From Sphaerotilus sp. (lineage in GTDB: Bacteria; Pseudomonadota; Gammaproteobacteria; Burkholderiales; Burkholderiaceae_C), in contig JAAFKB010000003.1 in the NCBI GenBank assembly GCA_013299055.1, forward strand, positions 28,899 to 92,898: 64,000 nucleotides of DNA, written 5' to 3'. How positions within the stretch are numbered: position 1 is the first letter of the stretch; every line of letters begins with the position of its first letter. Under the pieces are notes generated by a model. It made no database searches and was not told where the DNA came from. It saw only the letters and a list, made by a program, of their open reading frames with translations. Below, piece by piece: positions 34,366 to 45,024 of this stretch. A program made the position numbers and the translations under genes.

Positions 34366-35367
34366 TCAGCCCGGCGTGGCCCCGAACCACCACGCCACCG
34401 CCGCGAAGCTGCCGAACGCCAGCACGGTCGAGGCCAGGATGATCCGTGCGATGCGGCCGTTGTCGGCGCCGTAGCGTTCGGCCAATAACGAGACGTTGCT
34501 GGCGCTCGGCAGTGCGGCGGCCAGCACCAGCACCGTCACCTGGAAGTCGCTCAGCGCCAGCCCGGCGGCTTGTGCGCCCAGTGCGGTGGCCCACACCAGC
34601 AGCGGATGCAGCACCAGCTTGATCAGCGCCACCGGCAGGTAACGCCCCATCGGCATCGGGGCGCTCGGCCGGCCCTGCGCGTCCAGCCCAGAGCGCCACA
34701 GCACCGCGCCGATCGTGAACAGCGCGACCGGGCTGGCGGCATCGGCGAGCATGCCCACCCCCTTCGCCAGCGGACCCGGCAGCACCAGGCCAGTCACCGA
34801 CATCAGCGCCCCCAGCCCGATCGACCACGGCAGCGGATTGCCGAGGGCAGCGCGCAGCGAGCGGGTGATCGCGGCCCGTGCGGCTGCAGCGTCGCCGCTG
34901 TGGCTGGCACTGGGGTCATCGTGGTGGAGCTGCGCAATGGCGATGCACAGCGAGCTGGTGATGAACAGGTCGGCCAGCACGCTGGTGATCGTCGGCCCCG
35001 CTGCCGCCGGTCCGAGCAGCGCCACCAGCAGCGGCACGCCCATGAAGCCGGTGTTCGGGAAGGCGGCCACCAGCGCACCGAACGCGGCGTCGCGCAGATT
35101 GCCGGCCGCCCTGCGTGTCGTCACCACCGTGAACGCCACCACCGCCAGCGCGCACAGCAGGTACACCCCCATCACCACCGGGTCGAACAGCTCGCCCACC
35201 GGCAGGTTGGCGCCGAAGCGAAACAGCATGCACGGCAGCGCGAAGTACAGGACAAACGCATTCAGCCCCGGCACCGCCGCCAGCGGCAGGGCACCCCGCC
35301 GGGCGGCGAGGTAGCCGAGCAGGATCAGGGCGAAGAAGGGGACGGTGACGGCGAGGATGGGCTGCAT
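34366..35367 (-). CDS. AEC family transporter (auxin efflux carrier type)
   Basis: MQPILAVTVPFFALILLGYLAARRGALPLAAVPGLNAFVLYFALPCMLF; multi-TM. Confidence 0.85.
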   Translation of the reverse strand: MQPILAVTVPFFALILLGYLAARRGALPLAAVPGLNAFVLYFALPCMLFRFGANLPVGELFDPVVMGVYLLCALAVVAFTVVTTRRAAGNLRDAAFGALVAAFPNTGFMGVPLLVALLGPAAAGPTITSVLADLFITSSLCIAIAQLHHDDPSASHSGDAAAARAAITRSLRAALGNPLPWSIGLGALMSVTGLVLPGPLAKGVGMLADAASPVALFTIGAVLWRSGLDAQGRPSAPMPMGRYLPVALIKLVLHPLLVWATALGAQAAGLALSDFQVTVLVLAAALPSASNVSLLAERYGADNGRIARIILASTVLAFGSFAAVAWWFGATPG

Positions 35368-36314
35368 GGGGGGAAGTATCCCAGCGAGTTCATCCACTTG
35401 CGCACTTGGCTCACCCGGCTCACCTGCTGGTCTTCATCGGCCTGCACCAGCATCAACGCCCGGTCGAGATGGCCGTCGACGGTGGTCAAGTAGCGGCGCT
35501 CGCGGTCAGCTTCGTCGAACCAGCCATGGGCGCGGGCGATCTTGGCGTGGCTGTGTTTGGCGATGGCCGCCGTCAGCACCTCCCGCGCCAGGGGGTCGAG
35601 CAAGCCGAGGCGGTGGTCCAGTTCCTGCTCTGCCAGCGCCACCAGCGACTTGACCTCGTGGCGGCGCAGCAGCGGACCGACTGTCTCGCCCAGCACCATG
35701 ATCGAGCGGCTGTCGCCCAGCAGCTTCTGCAGCCCGCTCGTGCGCTGCAGTTCCACGACACCTTCATTCTTGCTCAGCAGCAGGGCTATCGTTTTGTTGG
35801 GCGTGTTGTCCAGCACGAGGCCGATCACCTCGCGTTCGGCCTGTGTCATCACGTCCAGCACGATCTGCAGCAACCTCCGCTCCTCCTCGGCCGCCTGGCG
35901 CAGCGCCGGCTCACGGGCCAGGCAGTGGCGCAGCGTGGCCTTCAGCTCGTCCGGCGGTGTATGTTTGGGGAGGAAATCGACGTCGGAGCGGTACTTGACC
36001 TGCTGCACCGCCATGCGCACGTCGTTCCCATGCGGCCCGGTCAGGAAGACCACTGGCATCGGGCAGCGGTGCCGCAGCAGTTGCGCGAAGATCTGCCGTC
36101 CGTTCATGGCCCCTGGCGGCGCAAGGTCGAAATCGATGTCCAGCGTCACCACGCCCCGCCTTGGCCACAGTGGCTCGGCCAGGAACTGCTCGCCGCTCGG
36201 GTAGCCCCGCGCCTCGAAACCATCCGCACGCAGGTTGTAGAGCAGGCTGTCGCGGAACTTGTCGTAGTCGTCGATGACGTGGACCAGGAGCGGTTCAGGT
36301 GCGGGGCTAAGCAT
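35325..36314 (-). CDS. response regulator with divergent LuxR-like output and extra C-terminal helical region
   Basis: VHVIDDYDKFRDSLLYNLRADGFEARGYPSGEQFL receiver, VVFLTG, DFLPKHTPPDELKATL; MTQAEREVIGLVLDNTPNKTIALLLSKNEGVVELQRTSGLQKL. Confidence 0.8.
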   Translation of the reverse strand: MLSPAPEPLLVHVIDDYDKFRDSLLYNLRADGFEARGYPSGEQFLAEPLWPRRGVVTLDIDFDLAPPGAMNGRQIFAQLLRHRCPMPVVFLTGPHGNDVRMAVQQVKYRSDVDFLPKHTPPDELKATLRHCLAREPALRQAAEEERRLLQIVLDVMTQAEREVIGLVLDNTPNKTIALLLSKNEGVVELQRTSGLQKLLGDSRSIMVLGETVGPLLRRHEVKSLVALAEQELDHRLGLLDPLAREVLTAAIAKHSHAKIARAHGWFDEADRERRYLTTVDGHLDRALMLVQADEDQQVSRVSQVRKWMNSLGYFPPCSPSSPSPSPSSP

Positions 36315-38271
36315 GGTCGCGGGGGGGGGCATCGGTCGAACCCTCAGGGGTGGGTGGGGTCAGCGGCAGGGTGATGACGAAATCGGCGCCGCGCGGCAGG
36401 TTGTCGGTGACCGCCATGTGCCCGCCGAGTCGCTCGACCCAGTGCTGGCAGAAGTGGAGCCCCCAGCCGTTGCCGCCGTGGCGGGTCGAGTAGCCGTGCT
36501 CGAACACCTTCTCGCGCAGCGCGACCGGCACGCCCCGGCCCCGGTCACGCACATGGATCTGCACCTGCTGGGTGTCCTCGTCCACGTAGCTCTCGACGCT
36601 GAGCTGGCGGTTGGTCAGCGGGATGTCCTCCATCGCCCAGATGGCGTTGCGCACGAGGTTGCTGATGACCTCGCACAGCGCGAACCGATCGGTCATGACT
36701 GGCGCCAGACCGGCCGAGACACCGTTGTGCAGCACGACGTTCTGTGCGGTGGCGTAGCGGCCTTCCCGCGCCAGCGCGTCCGCCACCGTCTCGCGCAGGC
36801 TCGCCGGCTCGATCGTCGGCTCGCCGCGCAGCCATGGCCGGAAGCGTTGCACGGTGTCGCTCATGTCCTGCGCGGACTGTTCGGCCAGGCGCACGCCTTC
36901 GGCCAGGTGCTCGTGGCGACCGGCCTTCAGTTGGTTCTTGACGCCATCCAGGGCCTGCAGGCAGGCGCTGCTGTGGTTCGAGATCTTGTGCAGCAGCTCG
37001 CCCGACTTTTCACCGAGCAGATGCACCGACAACTGCCGCCCCAACGCCGCATCCATGCTCTCGATGCGGCGCTGGTCCTCCATCTCACGGCTGACGTCGG
37101 TGCTGGCGAGGATCCAGCCCTCGCCGCTGCCGAGGGCGCGTGCGCTGACCTGCGCGGTCCAGCGCGTGCCGTCCGGACGCACGAACGGCACGCGGTAGCC
37201 GCTGGGGCGGGCCTCACCTGCCAGGATGACATGCAGGTGTTCATCCAGCCGGTCGGTGTGGTCCTCGGGCCAGAAGGGGTAGGGGGGGGCCACGCCGATC
37301 AATGCCTCAATGGGCCAGCCCGAGTCGGTGCAGAAGGTCCGGTTGACGTAGGTGAGCCGACCGTCGCGACCCACGACGCGCAGCCCCACGCTGATCGACT
37401 CCTCGATGTTTTTGCGAAAAGCAATCTCGCTGTCCAGGGCCAGCGCGGCGCCTTGACGGGCGGTGATTTCCTCGCGCAGGGTGCGCTGGTAGTCGCGCTG
37501 CGATCGGCCCAGCCAGCGCAGGCTGATCCCCACCAGCCCGACCAGCCCGACCGCCAGCACCGACAGCAGCACCTGCACCTGCCGCACCACACCAGGTGCG
37601 TCGTCGGGGCGGCGGGCCTCTGCAGCCGCCACCGCCGTGCCCACCGCGCTGACCACCTGGTACCGCTGCACCAGCGCCAGCGTCGGCGGCTTGTCAGGCA
37701 GCGTCCACAGCCGGTCGATGAAGGCGCCGGACGGCGTTCGCCGCTCGACCAGGTCACCACGGGCCAGCTCCGCGCGCACGCGGGCCAGCTCGTCAGGGGC
37801 CAGGGCGTTGTCCCGCTCATCGGCCACGCCGTGCAGGTGCCGCTCGGCTTGGCCGCTGTCGAGCCGCAGCAACCAGGTGGCGACCAATCCAGGCTGGGTG
37901 CGGCTGCAACGCTGAGCGGTCGTGGACAAGAACTGCAGGTGGAGGTCGCTGCGGCGCTGGCTCGGGCTCAGTCGGGTCCACTCGGCGATCAGCTCGCGGG
38001 CACAGGCGTCGCCCTCCGGGGTGCTGCGCGGTGTCGTGGGCGGTGCGGCAGGTGGTGTGGTGATCGCCACGGGGGCCACGCGGTTCGGGTCCAGTGGGGC
38101 CGGCAGCAGCTCCCAGATCAAGGCCAGCAGCAGCGTCACCGCGCCCGCCGCCGCCGCCACCGCCAGTCGCTGCAGCCACCGGATGCGCCCTCGCGCTGCG
38201 CCGGTCTCGGATGTCACTTCAGCCCCCACCTCAGCCTCCCAGTTGCGAACAGGTGTCGCGCTGCCAGCCAC
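36307..38271 (-). CDS. membrane PAS-domain sensor histidine kinase
   Basis: N-terminal TM, extracytoplasmic region, second TM, PAS (LRVVGRDGRLTYVNRTFCTDSGWPIEALIG), HATPase motifs (NLVRNAIWAM, VRDRGRGVP, GNGWGLHFCQHWVERLGG). Start could also be GTG at about 38217. Confidence 0.88.
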   Translation of the reverse strand: MAGSATPVRNWEAEVGAEVTSETGAARGRIRWLQRLAVAAAAGAVTLLLALIWELLPAPLDPNRVAPVAITTPPAAPPTTPRSTPEGDACARELIAEWTRLSPSQRRSDLHLQFLSTTAQRCSRTQPGLVATWLLRLDSGQAERHLHGVADERDNALAPDELARVRAELARGDLVERRTPSGAFIDRLWTLPDKPPTLALVQRYQVVSAVGTAVAAAEARRPDDAPGVVRQVQVLLSVLAVGLVGLVGISLRWLGRSQRDYQRTLREEITARQGAALALDSEIAFRKNIEESISVGLRVVGRDGRLTYVNRTFCTDSGWPIEALIGVAPPYPFWPEDHTDRLDEHLHVILAGEARPSGYRVPFVRPDGTRWTAQVSARALGSGEGWILASTDVSREMEDQRRIESMDAALGRQLSVHLLGEKSGELLHKISNHSSACLQALDGVKNQLKAGRHEHLAEGVRLAEQSAQDMSDTVQRFRPWLRGEPTIEPASLRETVADALAREGRYATAQNVVLHNGVSAGLAPVMTDRFALCEVISNLVRNAIWAMEDIPLTNRQLSVESYVDEDTQQVQIHVRDRGRGVPVALREKVFEHGYSTRHGGNGWGLHFCQHWVERLGGHMAVTDNLPRGADFVITLPLTPPTPEGSTDAPPRDHA

Positions 38272-39478
38272 TCACCGAGCGCCGGGCGTCCACCTCCCGC
38301 CATTTGGGATGGTAATTCTGGCGTTTCAGCACCGGCAGTTCCTGCTCGATCACCCGCCCCAGGCGGTGAAGCTGCCGACAGCGGCGCTGCTGGTAGTCGT
38401 TCAGTCGTGGCGAGAAATCGAAGGCCATCAGCAGCGCCCGCACCGCCAGCGTGTCCACCGGCTGCCTCACCCAGGGGTAGTCGCTGTCATCAATGCGGGC
38501 CGTTTCGTAACCGATGTTGTGCGTGGGCAGCGCCAGCGGCAGCAGATGCACGGACTCCAGCGGGTGAGCCGCGTGTTCGCGCAGGGCACTGAGGTTGCGC
38601 AAGGACTTCGCGGGTTTGCCCTCCACGATCACCATCGCGTCGGCATCGCCGGTCAGCACGCTGCACAGCGCCTTGGCGGTCGTCTGCTGGCTGTTCAGGC
38701 TGGCAGGCACCACGTTCGCGGCGAGCAGCAGGTTCTCGGCGGTGTGGCGGCTGCCCTGGGAGGTGGAGGAGGTGACCACGCGCCGCCCGGCCAGGTCCGC
38801 CAGCGTGCGCAGCTCCCTGCGCGCCAGCACATGCACCTCCTCGGCGTACAGCGGCAGCACCAGCCGCAGCGACCCCGTCACCTTGCGATCGTTCGGGTCG
38901 GGCGAACGGGCCAGCCACCCCAGGATGTCCGACTGCGCGAAGCCCAGTGCGGCGTTCTCCTTCGGGTGGGCGAGCTTGTGAAGGTTGTCCAGGCTGCCCA
39001 GCGTCTCGTTGTTGAACAGCGGCACGCCCTGCCGCCGCGCCGCCGTGACCAGGTCATTGCCGATGTGGTGGTAGGTGCCGGTGGCGCTGCCGCTGACCAG
39101 GCCGATCGGGTAGCGCAGTGTCGAGGTGGGCGCCTCGACACTGCGCTGCAAGAGTTCGCCCTCCATCAGTTTGACTATGTCAGTCGAGAGCGTCGTCACG
39201 CAGTCCGTCTGCGTCAGGACGACAGACCCCGCCGCACGGTCGCCGACAGGGGCCGCCGCCGTGGCCAAGGCAGACAGGGTCGGCGCGGACGGCTGCCGCA
39301 GCAGCGCATACGCCCCCGCCAGCAGCCCCACCAGCACCAGCGTGCCGCGCAGCCAGCGGTCGGTGCTCTGCCCCACCGTCAGCCACGGCAGCAGCAGCCC
39401 GATCAGCAGCGCCCCCAGCCCCACGATCAGCAGCGGACTGTTCACCCCCCCGCTCCATCCCATCACCATGTCCACCAC
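38231..39478 (-). CDS. TAXI family TRAP-type solute-binding protein with N-terminal TM segments
   Basis: YPIGLVSGSATGTYHHIGNDLV, VPLFNNETLGSLDNLHKL, LGFAQSDILGWLA, GRRVVTSSTSQGSRHTAENLL; start uncertain. Confidence 0.8.
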   Translation of the reverse strand: MVDMVMGWSGGVNSPLLIVGLGALLIGLLLPWLTVGQSTDRWLRGTLVLVGLLAGAYALLRQPSAPTLSALATAAAPVGDRAAGSVVLTQTDCVTTLSTDIVKLMEGELLQRSVEAPTSTLRYPIGLVSGSATGTYHHIGNDLVTAARRQGVPLFNNETLGSLDNLHKLAHPKENAALGFAQSDILGWLARSPDPNDRKVTGSLRLVLPLYAEEVHVLARRELRTLADLAGRRVVTSSTSQGSRHTAENLLLAANVVPASLNSQQTTAKALCSVLTGDADAMVIVEGKPAKSLRNLSALREHAAHPLESVHLLPLALPTHNIGYETARIDDSDYPWVRQPVDTLAVRALLMAFDFSPRLNDYQQRRCRQLHRLGRVIEQELPVLKRQNYHPKWREVDARRSVSGWQRDTCSQLGG

Positions 39479-39604
39479 ACCCACCTCCCGGTCCCGCCGC
39501 ATTCGTGAAATTCTCTGCACTCCGACATTCTAGAAGTACGATTTCCGGCGCAGTCACCCTTTCGAGACGATCGACATGCCGACATACCCGTACCTGGTAC
39601 CAAT

Positions 39605-40374
39605 GTGGACCTCGTCGCGGGCCAGGTGGTCGAGCTGGAATTCGCCGCTGACCCTGGGCAGAGCGATGTCGATCTCTACCTCTGGTCCGCCGACGGCCAG
39701 CGCATCGTCGGCGCCTCGACCGGCGTGGACAGCCGCTTCGCGTGCGTGCAGGTCACCACCAGTGGCACCTACTTCGTCGATGTCTATGCCCACCGTGGCG
39801 CGTCGATCTACAACCTGCGCATCGGCGCCCCCGGCACGGTCGGCCAGTGTGCCGAGCGCACCACCGCTGCCCGCTTCAACCCCGGCGAGCTGATGGCCCT
39901 GGCCCGCAGCGGTGGCATTACGAACAGATCAACCTGCCAGCGGCCATGACCCGCATCGCCGCGCTGGTCACCAAACCCGCGCTGCGCCCGATCGTGGCGG
40001 CGGCGGGCAACGGCGGCAACGCGCTCGCCGTGGGCACGTGCGCCAACTGCGCGGGCACCATCACCGTCGGCGCCACCAACGCCCAGCGCCAGCCGTCCTT
40101 CGGCCCGCTGCAGGGCACTTCGATGGCCACGCCCCACGTCGCCGGTGTGCTGGCCCTCATGCGCTACCTGCACCCCGGCCTCACCCCGGCGCAGCTCGAC
40201 AGCCTGCTGGCCCAGGGTGCCCTGACCGACGACCTGGGGGCGACCGGCCGCGACACGCAGTACGGCTGGGGGCTCATCAACGCCCGCAAGGCCGTGGATG
40301 CCGCGATCGAGCGGGAAACGGGCATGTCGCCGCAGGGCTTGTCCATCGGCGCCCGCCGGGCCGCTGTGCGCTGA
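39605..40374 (+). pseudogene. degraded subtilisin-like S8 peptidase remnant
   Basis: Frame 39605-39949 encodes a pre-peptidase-like segment (DLYLWSADGQRIVGASTGVDSRFACVQVTTSGTYFVDVYAH). A different frame carries the S8 Ser block (VAAAGNGGNALAVG, GTSMATPHVAGVLALMRYLHPGLTPAQLDSLL). The Asp and His catalytic blocks are not present. Confidence 0.75.
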
Positions 40375-40613
40375 ATCTGTGTGTTGCGGGGGTGTCCCGC
40401 CAGCGGCGCGGCGCATGGGTTGGCCCATATGGAACGCACGCGCCTCTGCGGGCATCCTGAGTTCAACGAAACCACACCGCGCCCCTCGAATTCAATCCCC
40501 TGCTGATGGGGCGCGACATGCACTCGACGGCGTGGGGTCGGAATCATTTTCTGCTCCGCTGTCCATGGTGCTGCATGGAGGCATGGCGGTCTTGTCTTTA
40601 ACGGAGGCATGAA

Positions 40614-41114
40614 ATGCTTTTTTCATATCGTTGCTCATGGTGGAAAAGCCAAATTAAATGTCACGCCTTCTTGTTCATGTCGATGCTGCTTCTGATGGGT
40701 ATTGCATATTTGGGAAAAGAGGACTTGTTTGTTTTTAGCGAGGAGGATGCATCAAGGGTGAAAAAACTTTTTTCATGGATGCTTGCTCTGTCCGCTTCTT
40801 TCGCGGCCATAGACTTCATCTTGCATTTCAAGGTTTCTGGCGAATGGGAGGTTCAAGTAAGCGAAAGTCATGTCACATGGAAATCCCCTAAGAACCTGGC
40901 GGGTGGAAACAATTTCACAATGAGGGTTGATGAAATTGAATACATCCGCATGGAAAGAAAAAGTGATGCTGAAGGGTATTCGTATAGTTATTACATGAAA
41001 CCAATAAAATCCCCTGAATTTTTCATTTACACCAACTCCTCTGGAGTCCCGATGAATAATTTTTTCGCTGCAATTGAGAAGCTTGGAACTCCCAGCTATT
41101 ATCGCGAAATTTAA
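40614..41114 (+). CDS. hypothetical membrane protein (two predicted TM helices, C-terminal soluble domain)
   Basis: AT-richer than surroundings; FLFMSMLLLMGIAYLG and LFSWMLALSASFAAIDFIL hydrophobic stretches. Confidence 0.65.
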   Translation: MLFSYRCSWWKSQIKCHAFLFMSMLLLMGIAYLGKEDLFVFSEEDASRVKKLFSWMLALSASFAAIDFILHFKVSGEWEVQVSESHVTWKSPKNLAGGNNFTMRVDEIEYIRMERKSDAEGYSYSYYMKPIKSPEFFIYTNSSGVPMNNFFAAIEKLGTPSYYREI

Positions 41115-41216
41115 TCCTCTTGAGAATTTCTACTCGACCAAAAACAGCTCGTCATCCCGTCCACCACCCAATAAATCAATTCAGCCTGAGCCAACCCAAT
41201 CCACACAGGAAAAACC

Positions 41217-41738
41217 ATGAGCTTCCATCGCACGACTTTTGCCACCCTTGCGCTTATTTTTCTTGTTCAAGATGCTTTTGCACAGGAACGTCGATTCGGT
41301 GCATGGGCGGTGGGACTGCTGAATGACAAGTCGGGGTCTTATGCCGCCACGGCCAACGAAAGCGATGTCGTCTTTGGGCAGTCCTGCCAAGTGACTGGAG
41401 CCGGTTGTTCCTGGTTTTTGATCCCCAGATACGAATGCACTGTCGGTGGTAATTACACCGTACTTGTCAACTCTGACGCAGGCACAGCTGCTCACACACT
41501 TTCCTGCGCCACGGCCGAAGGCAAAACACACTACAGGTTCAACGACTCAGAACAAATAACAAGTCTTGTCTCGAAATCCTCTGAAATCGCATTCGCCTTT
41601 GCCAAAGCTGGAAGCCAGTTTCAAGTCAGCCGATTTTCCCTCAATGGGTCAAACGATGCACTGACCCTGATGCTCAAGACGGCCACGATCATGGGGCAAA
41701 AAAATAATGGCAGTGGCATGCGGGATCAGGTGCTGTAA
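41217..41738 (+). CDS. hypothetical secreted protein
   Basis: Signal peptide MSFHRTTFATLALIFLVQDAFAQ; four downstream cysteines. Confidence 0.65.
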   Translation: MSFHRTTFATLALIFLVQDAFAQERRFGAWAVGLLNDKSGSYAATANESDVVFGQSCQVTGAGCSWFLIPRYECTVGGNYTVLVNSDAGTAAHTLSCATAEGKTHYRFNDSEQITSLVSKSSEIAFAFAKAGSQFQVSRFSLNGSNDALTLMLKTATIMGQKNNGSGMRDQVL

Positions 41739-41771
41739 GCATGCCTCAACCGAAGAAGGCGTATTGACTGA

Positions 41772-41799
41772 TTTCTGCTTTCTGCTTTCTGCTTTCTGA
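41772..41799. repeat. heptamer tandem repeat (TTTCTGC)x3 plus partial
   Basis: tttctgctttctgctttctgctttctga in the intergenic region. Confidence 0.85.
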
Positions 41800-42033
41800 T
41801 AATCCAGAGAATGGCGGTGTGACGCTCACGCATCATCGGATGCAAGGGCGGAGTCAAGTCAGCAAAATCCTGCTTCTGAAATTATGTGCCATCTCAATTG
41901 CGGCGCATAAACTGGCCGCTTGCAATACGTTGGTGGGCAGTGAACTGCATGGCAGCGACTCTCTCCGCAACGAAATTGCGCACGAAAAATAGATAATATC
42001 TCAAACGGCAATCAAACTTAATTGGGACTGCTT

Positions 42034-43008
42034 ATGTCAGCGACGCTGGAAACTCAGAGATCTGCGAAGCCAGGAAATACTTGGCGCATTGCCTGCGCTT
42101 TGTCATGCGTTGCAGTGTTTGCCTACGCCTTTTATGGAAGCAACCATGCCTTGGGAGAGGGTGTCCCGTATCAGATGGGCTACAACCTCCCCATTGCCGC
42201 CATTCTTTCAGGCGCTTTGCACCTCTTCTTTCGAAAGCGAGAGTCGAGTCAAACAGGCTGGTTAGGTTTTGCGCTCATCTATGCGTCGCTCATTGCCGCT
42301 GCATCCATTGCGGAGAGCCGTCAGAAATCAGAGCTAAGAACCGTGGCGACGGAAATGCAGAATTCGATTTCTGCGATCGACATTTCGGCGTCTTCGAGTC
42401 AATCCACACCGATACCCCCACCCATCACATCAAGCGCCACTGGCGAAGCCGGCAAGATAGATGTTTTGCTGAAAACCGTACTCAACCGAGCAATTTCTCA
42501 GCGGCGAGAGTACATGCTTGAACTGGAGGCAATCGGTTGGCCCAACATCCTGGACGGTTCTCGCCTCAAGAACGACTCGACGTTTGCTCAAAGCCGAACA
42601 ATGGTTCAACAGGCCAAGGACATTGTGGCCAAGTATCGATCACGCACCGACACGCTGTACGCGCAGATGCGCCGCGACATTGAAACGTCTGGCATGGGCA
42701 CAGAATTAAGGCGGGCAACTCTCGCCGTCTTCGATCAGAGATTGAGCCAGGGGATCAGCCAGGCTGCGGAGCTGTGGTCTCTCGAAGAGCAGGTGATCGG
42801 TCACATCGAGAATGGATTGAATCTCCTGGCTGCGCGACATGGCGGATGGACCCTTCAAGAGGGTCAGGTCACGTTTCATCGGCAAAAAGACCTGGATCTG
42901 TTCAATGCCCATCTCAAGAAAGCTGAAGTCATCGCCAGTCAGCAAGAGCAGATGCAAGCTGCATCCTTGCAAAAGGCCAAAGAAGGTATGTCCCAACTTG
43001 GGAAGTGA
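42034..43008 (+). CDS. hypothetical membrane protein with coiled-coil region
   Basis: Three hydrophobic N-terminal segments followed by a long polar/coiled-coil region; ATG at 42034. Confidence 0.65.
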   Translation: MSATLETQRSAKPGNTWRIACALSCVAVFAYAFYGSNHALGEGVPYQMGYNLPIAAILSGALHLFFRKRESSQTGWLGFALIYASLIAAASIAESRQKSELRTVATEMQNSISAIDISASSSQSTPIPPPITSSATGEAGKIDVLLKTVLNRAISQRREYMLELEAIGWPNILDGSRLKNDSTFAQSRTMVQQAKDIVAKYRSRTDTLYAQMRRDIETSGMGTELRRATLAVFDQRLSQGISQAAELWSLEEQVIGHIENGLNLLAARHGGWTLQEGQVTFHRQKDLDLFNAHLKKAEVIASQQEQMQAASLQKAKEGMSQLGK

Positions 43009-43133
43009 TGCGCCACGCCGCCTTGCACCACCCCTGCCGCCCTGCAGGGGTGGCCCCATATGGTGTTGACCGGCACTCCCGCGCATCCTGTGTGTGACGA
43101 CGCGATCCCCGCGTCGCGCACCAGGAGCCGATC

Positions 43134-43889
43134 ATGTCCCCCGCCAACGTCCATGGCCTCGCGACCCGTTCGCCCCCCCGTCCCGGCGCCGTCACCGCGA
43201 CCGATCCCCGTGCCACCCGGCTCGCCGTCCCGCTGACCTGGGCACTCGGCCTCGGCACGGCGCTGGTCGTGGCCCCGGTGATCTTCGTGGTGGTGCAGGG
43301 CATGGCCGGGCTGATGGTGGCCGGCACGCTCGGACTGGCCGGTGTGCAGCTCGCGCCGGTCGTGGCGCTCAAGCTGGCGAACTGGCGGCTGCGGCTGCTG
43401 CAGGGCGAGGCGCGCGGCAACCCGCTGCCGACGCTGGAGAACATGCTCATCGATCGCCGCACCGCGCTCACGCAGGCCAGCATCCAGCTTCAAGGGGCCA
43501 TCGCCCAGATCGACGCCTTCGTCGAACAAGCCCAGGACTTCGCTCGTACCCACCCCGACGCCGCCGCCCGCTGGCTGGAGCGGGCGCAGCAGGCTCAGCA
43601 GCTGCGCGAACAGAAGAAGCGTGCGCTGCGCACCGCCGCCGAATCGGTGGCGGCCTTCGAGCAGGAAGTGGACCGCGCCCGCACCGAGTGGTCGCTGGTC
43701 GAGGCCGAGCGGGCGCTCAGCCACTCGCTCGGCGCCACCCGCGGCGACCCGATGGCGCAACTGCTGGAACGCACGGCGCTGGACAGCGTGCGGCTGCAGA
43801 TGAACCGCGCCTTCGCCAGCCTGGAGACGGAACTGGTGCTCGACCTCAACGCCACCCCCACCACCCACCCACCGGGAGCACGGCCATGA
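43134..43889 (+). CDS. hypothetical membrane-anchored coiled-coil protein
   Basis: Two hydrophobic segments (LTWALGLGTALVVAPVIFVVVQGMAGLMVAGTLGLAGVQLAPVVAL) followed by a long heptad-rich region. Confidence 0.7.
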   Translation: MSPANVHGLATRSPPRPGAVTATDPRATRLAVPLTWALGLGTALVVAPVIFVVVQGMAGLMVAGTLGLAGVQLAPVVALKLANWRLRLLQGEARGNPLPTLENMLIDRRTALTQASIQLQGAIAQIDAFVEQAQDFARTHPDAAARWLERAQQAQQLREQKKRALRTAAESVAAFEQEVDRARTEWSLVEAERALSHSLGATRGDPMAQLLERTALDSVRLQMNRAFASLETELVLDLNATPTTHPPGARP

Positions 43890-44050
43890 AGTTCCGCGTC
43901 ATCACCTCGCTGCTGCTGGCCGCCGTGCTGGTCGCGCTCTACCTGTGGCAGACCGGCACGGACCCCCAGCCACCCGACTCGACCTCGGCCCCAGCCCCCA
44001 CCCCCGACCAAGGCACCACCCAGGGCCTGGGCCGCGTCAAGATTTTCTGA
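43886..44050 (+). CDS. 54-aa single-TM small protein
   Basis: ATGA overlap with the upstream gene: MKFRVITSLLLAAVLVALYLWQTGTDPQPPDSTSAPAPTPDQGTTQGLGRVKIF. Below the supplied ORF length cutoff in this frame. Confidence 0.65.
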   Translation: MKFRVITSLLLAAVLVALYLWQTGTDPQPPDSTSAPAPTPDQGTTQGLGRVKIF

Positions 44051-44070
44051 ATCCTCGCAAGGACACCACC

Positions 44071-45024
44071 ATGACCACCACCACGCCCCTGTTCCTGACT
44101 CGCCATGTCACCACGGCGCTCGCCCTGGCGCTGACCACCACGCTCGCCGCCGCACAGAGCCCGATGCTCGTCTCCACCGGCATCCCGCAGGGCACCTACG
44201 CCTCGATGTTCAAGGACTTGGCGGGGGTCTGCGGCACCGCGGCCGGGCTGTCGCTGGCGGAGAAGCCCTCGTCCGGCGCGAACGAGTCCGTGGACCGGCT
44301 GCTGCGCAACGAGGTGTCGGCCGCCTTCGTGCAGACCGACGTGCTGCACGCCCGGCGCACCACGGAAGACCTCGGCGGCGTCAAGGCGCTGGTGGCGCTG
44401 CACCCGGAGCCGGTCCACCTGCTGGCGTTGACGGCACCGCTGGTCGAGGGCGGCGTGCTCGGGATCGGCGGGCGCAGCGTGCCGTTCAACACCCTGGGGG
44501 ATCTGGCCAAGCGGCGGGTCGGGGTCTGGGGCGGGGCGGCGGTGACGGCGCGGCTGATCCAGCTCCAGGCCGAGGTGGACTACCGCGTGACCGAGTTCAA
44601 CGGCCCGGAGGACGCGATGCAGGCGCTGCGGGCACGGCAGATCGACGCCGTGCTGGCGGTGGGTGGGGCGCCGCTGGCGTGGATGCGGGGGCTGGACCGG
44701 AGCGTGAAGCTGCTGTCGGTGCCGGAGCCGTGGGCAAGCAAGCTGCGCAACGTCTACCGCCCCGCCAAGCTGAGCTACAGCCACCTCGGGGCGCAGGGTG
44801 TGGCGACGGTGGCGACCGAGGCGGTGCTGGCGGTGCGCGATGTCCGTTCGGCAGCGGCAGCAGGCCCGCTGTTGAAGTTGCGCACCTGCCTGCAGCAACA
44901 ACTCGACCCGCTGCGCGACACCGTTGGCCACCACAGCGCGTGGAGCCAGGTCGAGGCGGGCAGCGTGCCGCACTGGCCGGTGTTCGAGCGTGGCGGTGGC
45001 CCGACGACCACGACCCGGAACTGA
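44071..45024 (+). CDS. TAXI/TRAP-like periplasmic solute-binding protein (short form)
   Basis: Signal peptide TALALALTTTLAAAQ; STGIPQGTYASMFKDLAGVCG, VSAAFVQTDVLHARR, DLAKRRVGVWGGAAVTARLI. Confidence 0.72.
   Translation: MTTTTPLFLTRHVTTALALALTTTLAAAQSPMLVSTGIPQGTYASMFKDLAGVCGTAAGLSLAEKPSSGANESVDRLLRNEVSAAFVQTDVLHARRTTEDLGGVKALVALHPEPVHLLALTAPLVEGGVLGIGGRSVPFNTLGDLAKRRVGVWGGAAVTARLIQLQAEVDYRVTEFNGPEDAMQALRARQIDAVLAVGGAPLAWMRGLDRSVKLLSVPEPWASKLRNVYRPAKLSYSHLGAQGVATVATEAVLAVRDVRSAAAAGPLLKLRTCLQQQLDPLRDTVGHHSAWSQVEAGSVPHWPVFERGGGPTTTTRN

Follow-up and report, generated by a model that had tools for sequence, protein, structure and literature searches.

The locus and its genes

What does a gene for a TAXI-like solute-binding protein (SBP) do when its neighbors encode a coiled-coil membrane protein (CC) and a tiny single-transmembrane (TM) protein, and no permease is recognised nearby? 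The question is raised by a locus of Sphaerotilus sp. within a stretch of 64,000 nucleotides (the window), drawn from a genome (G000) that comprises 239 contigs and is 83.8% complete. An initial annotation of this DNA singled out the three genes as its best candidate for an uncharacterised multi-gene system, possibly an envelope signalling or stress module, and pointed to a second TAXI gene close by, in an operon with a histidine kinase (HK) and a response regulator (RR). The features concerned are:

43134..43889, + strand: CC (P0001), 251 aa; predicted N-terminal hydrophobic hairpin followed by a long helical coiled coil, predicted to be cytoplasmic
43886..44050, + strand: small single-TM protein (P0002), 54 aa; Pro/Thr-rich tail ending in LGRVKIF
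44071..45024, + strand: SBP of predicted TAXI fold (P0003), 317 aa; probably periplasmic, with a cleavable-looking signal peptide
38231..39520, - strand: second TAXI protein (P0005), 429 aa as listed; two N-terminal hydrophobic segments; first gene of the TAXI-HK-RR operon
36307..38271, - strand: histidine kinase of the TAXI-HK-RR operon; PAS and HATPase domains
35325..36332, - strand: response regulator of the TAXI-HK-RR operon; Response_reg match at E 7.9e-07, just under the curated cut-off
39521..43133, no strand: DNA inserted relative to genome G008 and outside the cassette, ~3.4 kb; subtilase remnants, then low-GC ORFs at 40614, 41217, and 42022

The first three entries, already delimited in the initial annotation, agree with the ORF list, as does the ATGA coupling reported there: the last 4 nt of CC are also the first 4 nt of the small ORF, and a gap of 20 nt separates the small ORF from the TAXI gene. 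The remark that no permease is present was also upheld, none being recognised among the ORFs of 36-52 kb, and a TRAP membrane (QM) subunit was recognised neither among these ORFs nor beside the relatives examined. The 328-aa ORF at 42022, directly upstream of CC, might have been a fourth member but was discarded, since it sits in the low-GC insertion and is missing from the loci of two other Sphaerotilus genomes (G004 and G008). A short conserved element upstream of CC, GCAGGGG..GCCCCATATGG, was found in three species: at 43040-43065, at L018:7688-7712, and, on the L019 minus strand, near 2660 and 2045. G004 has two copies, and the element may be a repeat or a promoter element.

Sequence and predicted structure of CC and the TAXI protein

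The CC sequence passes from an N-terminal hydrophobic stretch through an Arg-rich sequence into long helices, which should be cytoplasmic under the positive-inside rule. It matches phrog_27316 (E 1.1e-28, over residues 35-234 of 251); Pfam and NCBIfam gave a significant match neither for CC nor for the small protein. The two TM segments attributed to CC in the initial annotation are probably right because, although a single hydrophobic segment (44-62) exceeds the hydropathy cut-off in the window copy, two do so in 16 of 25 CC homologues. In the predicted model (mean pLDDT 59, with the membrane part poor), helices at 98-139, 144-198, and 206-238 form an antiparallel helical hairpin. A fold search with this model returned insignificant matches of BAR/Vipp1-like type (best E 0.08), a PDB sequence search found generic coiled coils only, and PADLOC-DB models run against the cassette gave just marginal coiled-coil matches to ZorA (E 0.006-0.009). 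XpaC (PF10112), a TelA-associated two-TM coiled-coil family, was tried as an identity for CC and rejected, with no PF10112 in five cassette genomes or in an hmmscan of CC. On two phage contigs, the gene immediately upstream of CC encodes an SPFH-like-looking lipoprotein of phrog_200 (L073:7177-7968 and L074:7156-7968).

The TAXI protein P0003 matches TIGR02122 (E 1.7e-11, 43.6 bits against a cut-off of 84.35) and PF16868 (E 8e-6, 26.1 bits against a cut-off of 27). Both scores lie below the curated cut-offs, and P0003 is therefore called TAXI-like here, a divergent relative that falls outside the TIGR family. The structure predicted for it (pLDDT 84) is plainly TAXI-like in fold, the leading Foldseek matches in the PDB being VCA0144, 4ddd, VcGluP (8s4j, E 2e-13), and TtTAXI of T. 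thermophilus (1us4). Family matches and predicted fold thus agree with the description in the initial annotation, TAXI-like with a signal peptide. P0003 also matches phrog_6856 (5.9e-28, over residues 16-278 of 317). In VcGluP, Y45 and Q93 are key ligand determinants (PMC11574862), and their aligned equivalents in P0003 are Y43 and Q88. The first position is Y or F in all 19 cassette TAXI proteins compared and the second is Q in 16; ligand binding is likely because these pocket residues are kept in most copies, and it may not be universal, given that the Q is missing from three phage proteins. Most cassette TAXI copies carry a signal peptide ending in an AxA-like site.

Distribution in bacteria, on a plasmid, and in phages

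CC was searched for among relatives, through the family, order, class, and phylum, and in the family of G587, a genome from another Burkholderiales family. CC-SBP linkage was counted only at loci with flanking sequence, and gene calls on contigs were mechanical. CC profile searches yielded 25 intact loci, 12 of them bacterial or plasmid-borne and 13 on distinct IMG/VR contigs, to which six cultured phages add further loci. An SBP gene lies downstream of CC in all 31 intact loci examined; it is a TAXI gene, accompanied by one for a 44-59 aa single-TM protein, in 22, and encodes an SBP_bac_3-LysM protein in nine. The search for conserved co-occurrence proposed in the initial annotation has thus found an SBP after every intact CC, with TAXI in 22/31 loci, and the view of an uncharacterised multi-gene system, which had been staked on CC and the small protein keeping company with TAXI, is borne out.

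In bacteria, CC is rare. It was found in 3/13 Sphaerotilus genomes (G000, G004, and G008), in two other genera of the same family (G295 and G097, each with a small TM ORF in ATGA overlap), and in five genomes from one genus of another Burkholderiales family (G587 and relatives), where a tblastn match at 91% identity is to Burkholderia arboris. At these five Burkholderia-type loci, CC is followed by one protein of ~377 aa, which starts with a TM segment and continues through a linker rich in Pro and Ser to an SBP_bac_3 domain and, at the C-terminus, a LysM. The window genome has a second cassette, on contig C90 (locus L017), encoding a 262-aa CC, a 45-aa TM protein whose gene overlaps that of CC by a 4-nt ATGA, and a 319-aa TAXI protein. 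Separate searches of G000 with P0003 and P0001 each found two places, the second of which adjoin. Identity between the C90 and window cassettes is only 27% for CC and 23% for TAXI, so the arrangement has outlasted deep divergence. Beside a CC copy in G295 that is truncated to 118 aa (L027:8687-9043) lies a band-7-like ORF (L027:9024-9950) and no SBP gene. Weak CC matches in G217, G507, and G444 were judged to be chance because no cassette surrounds them, and a match in G1149 (E 7e-6) was left out of the counts, no gene having been called in that short locus.

A conjugative IncP plasmid of Azospira sp. I09 also carries the cassette, its small protein (WP_172974832) being encoded between a "hypothetical protein" and a "TAXI family TRAP transporter solute-binding subunit." On this plasmid (L035), the cassette is part of a long same-strand run that includes two TelA genes, DUF4088, two DSP-like phosphatases, and other unknowns. 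The DSP-like phosphatase family is also found near three phage cassettes (L068, L070, and L071).

A first CC profile found four contigs in IMG/VR scans, and refined profiles found 14 in all, 13 of them distinct. CC occurs with the small TM and TAXI genes on nine of the 13, with SBP_bac_3-LysM on four, and without an SBP on none. These contigs, of 42-353 kb, are metagenomic and some are fragments. A terminase large subunit exceeds the Pfam cut-off in 7/14 viral records, and other IMG/VR contigs have apparent phage DNA polymerase, RNA ligase, or tail-fibre genes. The 19 kb examined of contig v64 contain a portal protein and several phage RNA polymerase beta-subunit-like proteins, a set as in giant phages of the phiKZ kind.

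For cultured phages, tblastn of single CC proteins against INPHARED gave no match; the TAXI protein of contig L066 led in the same database to six phages of 143-221 kb, namely Achromobacter phage Motura and Vibrio phages RYC, K406, Va1, SRILMA, and phiTY18. The count is confined to these six, further Vibrio phage records (K354, K408, and TDDLMA) being left out. Each encodes a ~250-aa protein upstream of TAXI with a 44-56 aa TM ORF between, and in Motura (gp278-gp277-gp276) the 4-nt overlap is kept. CC profiles built without the cultured phages give these proteins E values from 1e-40 (Motura) to 1.5e-16 (K406) in the small set tested; for phiTY18, CC was assigned by position and likeness to Va1. 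In the Vibrio phages and on some contigs, the cassette is surrounded by replication genes (clamp loader, DNA polymerase). In Motura, homospermidine synthase and glutathionylspermidine synthase genes lie directly downstream of it (L079:5483-8308). A BFVD entry from Ralstonia phage RP12 (A0A1L7N117) and entries from uncultured Caudovirales are predicted to fold like SBPs, with Bug/TTT-type names for some of them, and phages of these kinds may carry further SBP modules.

Co-inheritance and transfer

The CC and TAXI genes have diverged together. Their distance matrices are correlated (Mantel r 0.89, n=19; 0.79 for n=16 non-redundant; permutation p 1e-4), and the two trees broadly agree. The window, G004, and G008 group with phage contig v64 in both (support 97/96 for CC and 80/88 for TAXI), the C90 type and G295 form a pair of their own, and the Burkholderia CC groups with the phage SBP_bac_3-LysM set (99/99). 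In Azospira, CC forms a pair with that of phage v72 (95/85), while the TAXI protein groups with v73 and v75 at lower support. The CC tree forces at least four changes of host between phage and bacterium; as the trees are midpoint-rooted, they do not give the direction of transfer, and the simpler reading would be that bacteria captured the cassette from phages. The initial annotation, which had placed the genes in an accessory zone, did not foresee the phage link, many large tailed phages carrying the cassette with no kinase adjoining, nor that a non-TAXI SBP can take the place of TAXI. That the cassette exists as a real unit is almost certain, and a phage-linked history is highly probable; in the explanation preferred here, the three genes make up one mobile cassette common to large tailed phages and a few Betaproteobacteria.

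The small TM protein as a candidate tether

All 22 TAXI-type loci have the small gene. Its product, of 44-59 aa, has one TM segment starting at residue 2-16 and then a polar Pro/Thr/Ser/Gln tail, which should be periplasmic given the basic N-terminus. In many copies the tail ends in a short basic/hydrophobic motif (VKIF, LKID, LKIN, KFNF, or SFNF) that varies by subgroup and is lacking from the C90 copy; none of the small proteins compared with PHROGs matched a family. The nine loci (9/31) in which an SBP_bac_3-LysM protein, with its own apparently uncleaved N-terminal TM helix, stands in place of TAXI are precisely those without the small gene, which goes instead with SBPs that have a signal peptide and no anchor (22/22). 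With its signal peptide, TAXI would be released into the periplasm and would need something to hold it. Since the SBP_bac_3-LysM protein brings its own TM helix and its loci drop the small gene, the small protein is most economically read as a split-off tether for the SBP.

Association with two-component systems

In G008, on a 4.8-Mb contig, the cassette and the TAXI-HK-RR operon are divergent and 166 bp apart, whereas in the window the operon points away from the cassette at a distance of 3.6 kb; the window therefore has ~3.4 kb more. Positions 40614-43133 have a GC content of 50.5%, against 70-72% around them. The insertion contains a gene for a 166-aa membrane protein (40614-41114), a 31%-identical relative of which, with a weak DUF2244 match, occupies the same place in G004 (L019:2071-2571) and is absent from G008. 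By the TAXI-HK-RR operon, broken-looking subtilase/pre-peptidase remnants were read by eye at 39576-40460. The initial annotation had described two TAXI genes in one accessory zone; both are there and no permease is, but the tie is closer than that description implied, the two operons being immediate neighbors in G008.

The two TAXI genes of the window are not recent duplicates, a possibility ruled out by the tree, in which P0005 (TIGR02122 match at E 3.9e-15) belongs to a lineage separate from the cassette TAXI proteins (support 100/100). A match to the kinase-operon TAXI in G004 (G004:C196:2750-3913, L047) has one in-frame TGA. A further TAXI family, present in several Sphaerotilus genomes and one other family (L057, L052, and L049), has its TAXI domain flanked on either side by hydrophobic segments, and no permease was seen in the short loci.

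Within Sphaerotilus, the cassette is found only in the three genomes that also have the TAXI-HK-RR operon: P0005 orthologues (E below 1e-100) occur in exactly these three and in 0/10 others. Under independence, which does not apply to these genomes, the chance of such a 3/3 versus 0/10 split would be 1 in 286. The G295 cassette is followed on its own strand by kinase and regulator genes; the G097 cassette has them in divergent orientation, past a DctP-type SBP gene; and on C90 a kinase and two regulators are convergent with the cassette. In its PAS-kinase part, the window kinase is homologous to the cassette-adjacent kinases of G097 (E 3e-41) and G295 (E 2e-33); the N-terminal sensor parts of the three gave no alignment. 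The tie to a two-component system suggested in the initial annotation is thus supported in Burkholderiales, in the same 3/13 Sphaerotilus genomes and with HK-RR genes beside the cassette in G295, G097, and C90. No kinase adjoins the phage, Azospira, or Burkholderia cassettes, and because these copies do without one, the kinase is regarded as an added partner and not a requirement.

Proposed function and alternatives

That no permease was seen at any copy, and that one CC serves two SBP families, makes a conventional transporter unlikely. We therefore favor, at about even confidence, a sensing role across the membrane in which CC is the output, with guarding of the envelope as the main rival. 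The data show the cassette, its conservation and co-inheritance, its presence in phages, the TAXI fold, and the linkage to kinases in Burkholderiales; from these we infer the topology, docking, ligand, direction of signal, and biological role as follows. The SBP, TAXI in the window, would be exported to bind a small molecule, amino and organic acids being plausible ligands. The 44-59 aa protein would tether it, docking the soluble SBP at the membrane by means of the periplasmic tail; in the SBP_bac_3-LysM type this tether would be built into the SBP's own N-terminus. CC would sit in the inner membrane by its TM hairpin, with the long helical hairpin reaching into the cytoplasm, so that SBP occupancy or envelope engagement could be relayed through the membrane to CC, whose coiled coil would act as a cytoplasmic output or scaffold. 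In phages, such a device might sense the envelope or nutrient state of the infected cell, or guard its envelope; in Sphaerotilus and relatives, the cassette probably feeds the adjoining histidine kinase/response regulator operons.

Envelope guarding proper, as superinfection exclusion, would cast CC as a sub-membrane coat and the SBP as its anchor to the envelope, the two blocking the DNA of rival phages or plasmids, with bacteria having taken up the cassette as a defence. Sub-membrane TelA/TerF structures have been proposed to act against superinfection in a review of jumbo phages (PMC7824862), and also in favor are the antiparallel helical hairpin of the CC model, the LysM on one SBP type, and the carriage of the cassette by large tailed phages and by a conjugative plasmid with two adjoining TelA genes. 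However, TelA adjoins the cassette only on that Azospira plasmid, PADLOC gave no match of note, the similarity of CC to Vipp1/BAR is insignificant, and a ligand-binding SBP with conserved pocket residues is left unexplained. We consider this account unlikely, though a serious possibility.

TAXI and SBP_bac_3 proteins are normally parts of transporters, and TAXI can pair with a non-TRAP permease, as in TAXI-GltS (PMC12344293). The cassette could serve auxiliary uptake, in which the SBP hands substrate to a permease that the host encodes at another place, CC and the small protein do no more than position it, and the whole is, in phages, an auxiliary metabolic gene set; the presence of metabolic genes by some cassettes, such as the polyamine genes in Motura, would fit. 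This is improbable: the neighborhoods examined hold no permease, one CC common to two unrelated SBP families makes a specific permease partner unlikely, and the large cytoplasmic coiled coil has no evident role in transport.

A role in the timing of lysis, with CC as a holin-like or lysis-inhibition membrane protein regulated by the periplasmic SBP, would accord with the occurrence in phages, with a membrane hairpin and a periplasmic partner, and with the LysM of one SBP type, through which the PHROG endolysin matches largely arise; but the replication-gene setting of the cassette in Vibrio phages and on some contigs is not one of lysis genes, and persistence in bacterial chromosomes also speaks against this role, which is very improbable. 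Chance joining of unrelated genes, for which the accessory region with its odd-GC insertion might speak, is refuted by the recurrence of the architecture at 22 TAXI-type loci, order and spacing being repeated in phages, plasmid, and chromosomes with congruent divergence, and we give it virtually no credence.

A broader picture, which may equally hold or fail, is that of a previously unrecognised phage-borne machine for sensing or guarding across the membrane, made up of an exported SBP, a separate tether peptide, and a membrane coiled-coil effector, with interchangeable SBP folds, acquired several times by bacteria and wired to two-component regulation in Burkholderiales. If the sensing model is true, lytic phages would monitor the periplasm via a binding protein of their own, a new way of reading the host. 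The swap between TAXI and SBP_bac_3-LysM, in which the tether would come to lie in the same protein, makes the tether hypothesis directly testable.

Comparison with known systems

Large phages carry hundreds of unexplained genes. Here, two PHROG families and an unnoticed tiny gene are brought together under one identity, with a fold, a likely class of ligand, and a physical layout, and bacteria are seen to keep the set next to sensor kinases. PHROGs lists phrog_27316 and phrog_6856, the families matched by P0001 and P0003, as separate families of "unknown function," and the entries seen record neither the CC-TAXI linkage, nor the small TM gene, nor bacterial copies. A description of the cassette was not found in the open-licence literature, although an earlier one elsewhere is possible. 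The jumbo-phage survey that treats Motura (PMC7824862) has no mention of periplasmic, solute, PBP, or coiled-coil, and does not seem to describe the cassette.

The TAXI SBPs of TRAP transporters (VcGluP and TtTAXI) are alike in fold and main ligand residues, but the cassette differs from them in its CC and small TM partners, the lack of a TRAP membrane subunit, and a TAXI sequence that falls below the family cut-offs. In Bordetella TAXI-GltS, BP0403 is a lipoprotein with an extra N-terminal domain that works with the GltS permease (PMC12344293); it too is a TAXI protein without a TRAP permease, held at the membrane, whereas the anchor of the cassette would be a separate gene and a permease was not seen. 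Ter/TelA systems (PMC7824862) resemble the cassette in a membrane-associated helical protein and in carriage by phages and plasmids, and TelA lies by one cassette copy. In contrast to those systems, the cassette has an SBP at its center, CC is not TelA, and among cassette loci Ter/TelA components were found only as TelA in the Azospira locus, the other copies having no Ter proteins beside them. SBP-dependent two-component sensors (BvgS and the Bct/Tct type) link an SBP-fold protein to a histidine kinase and a response regulator. The cassette too has an SBP-fold protein, with HK/RR genes linked to it in Sphaerotilus, G295, G097, and C90 and none beside the phage, Azospira, and Burkholderia copies; its core partners are CC and the small TM protein, and the kinase is an optional addition.
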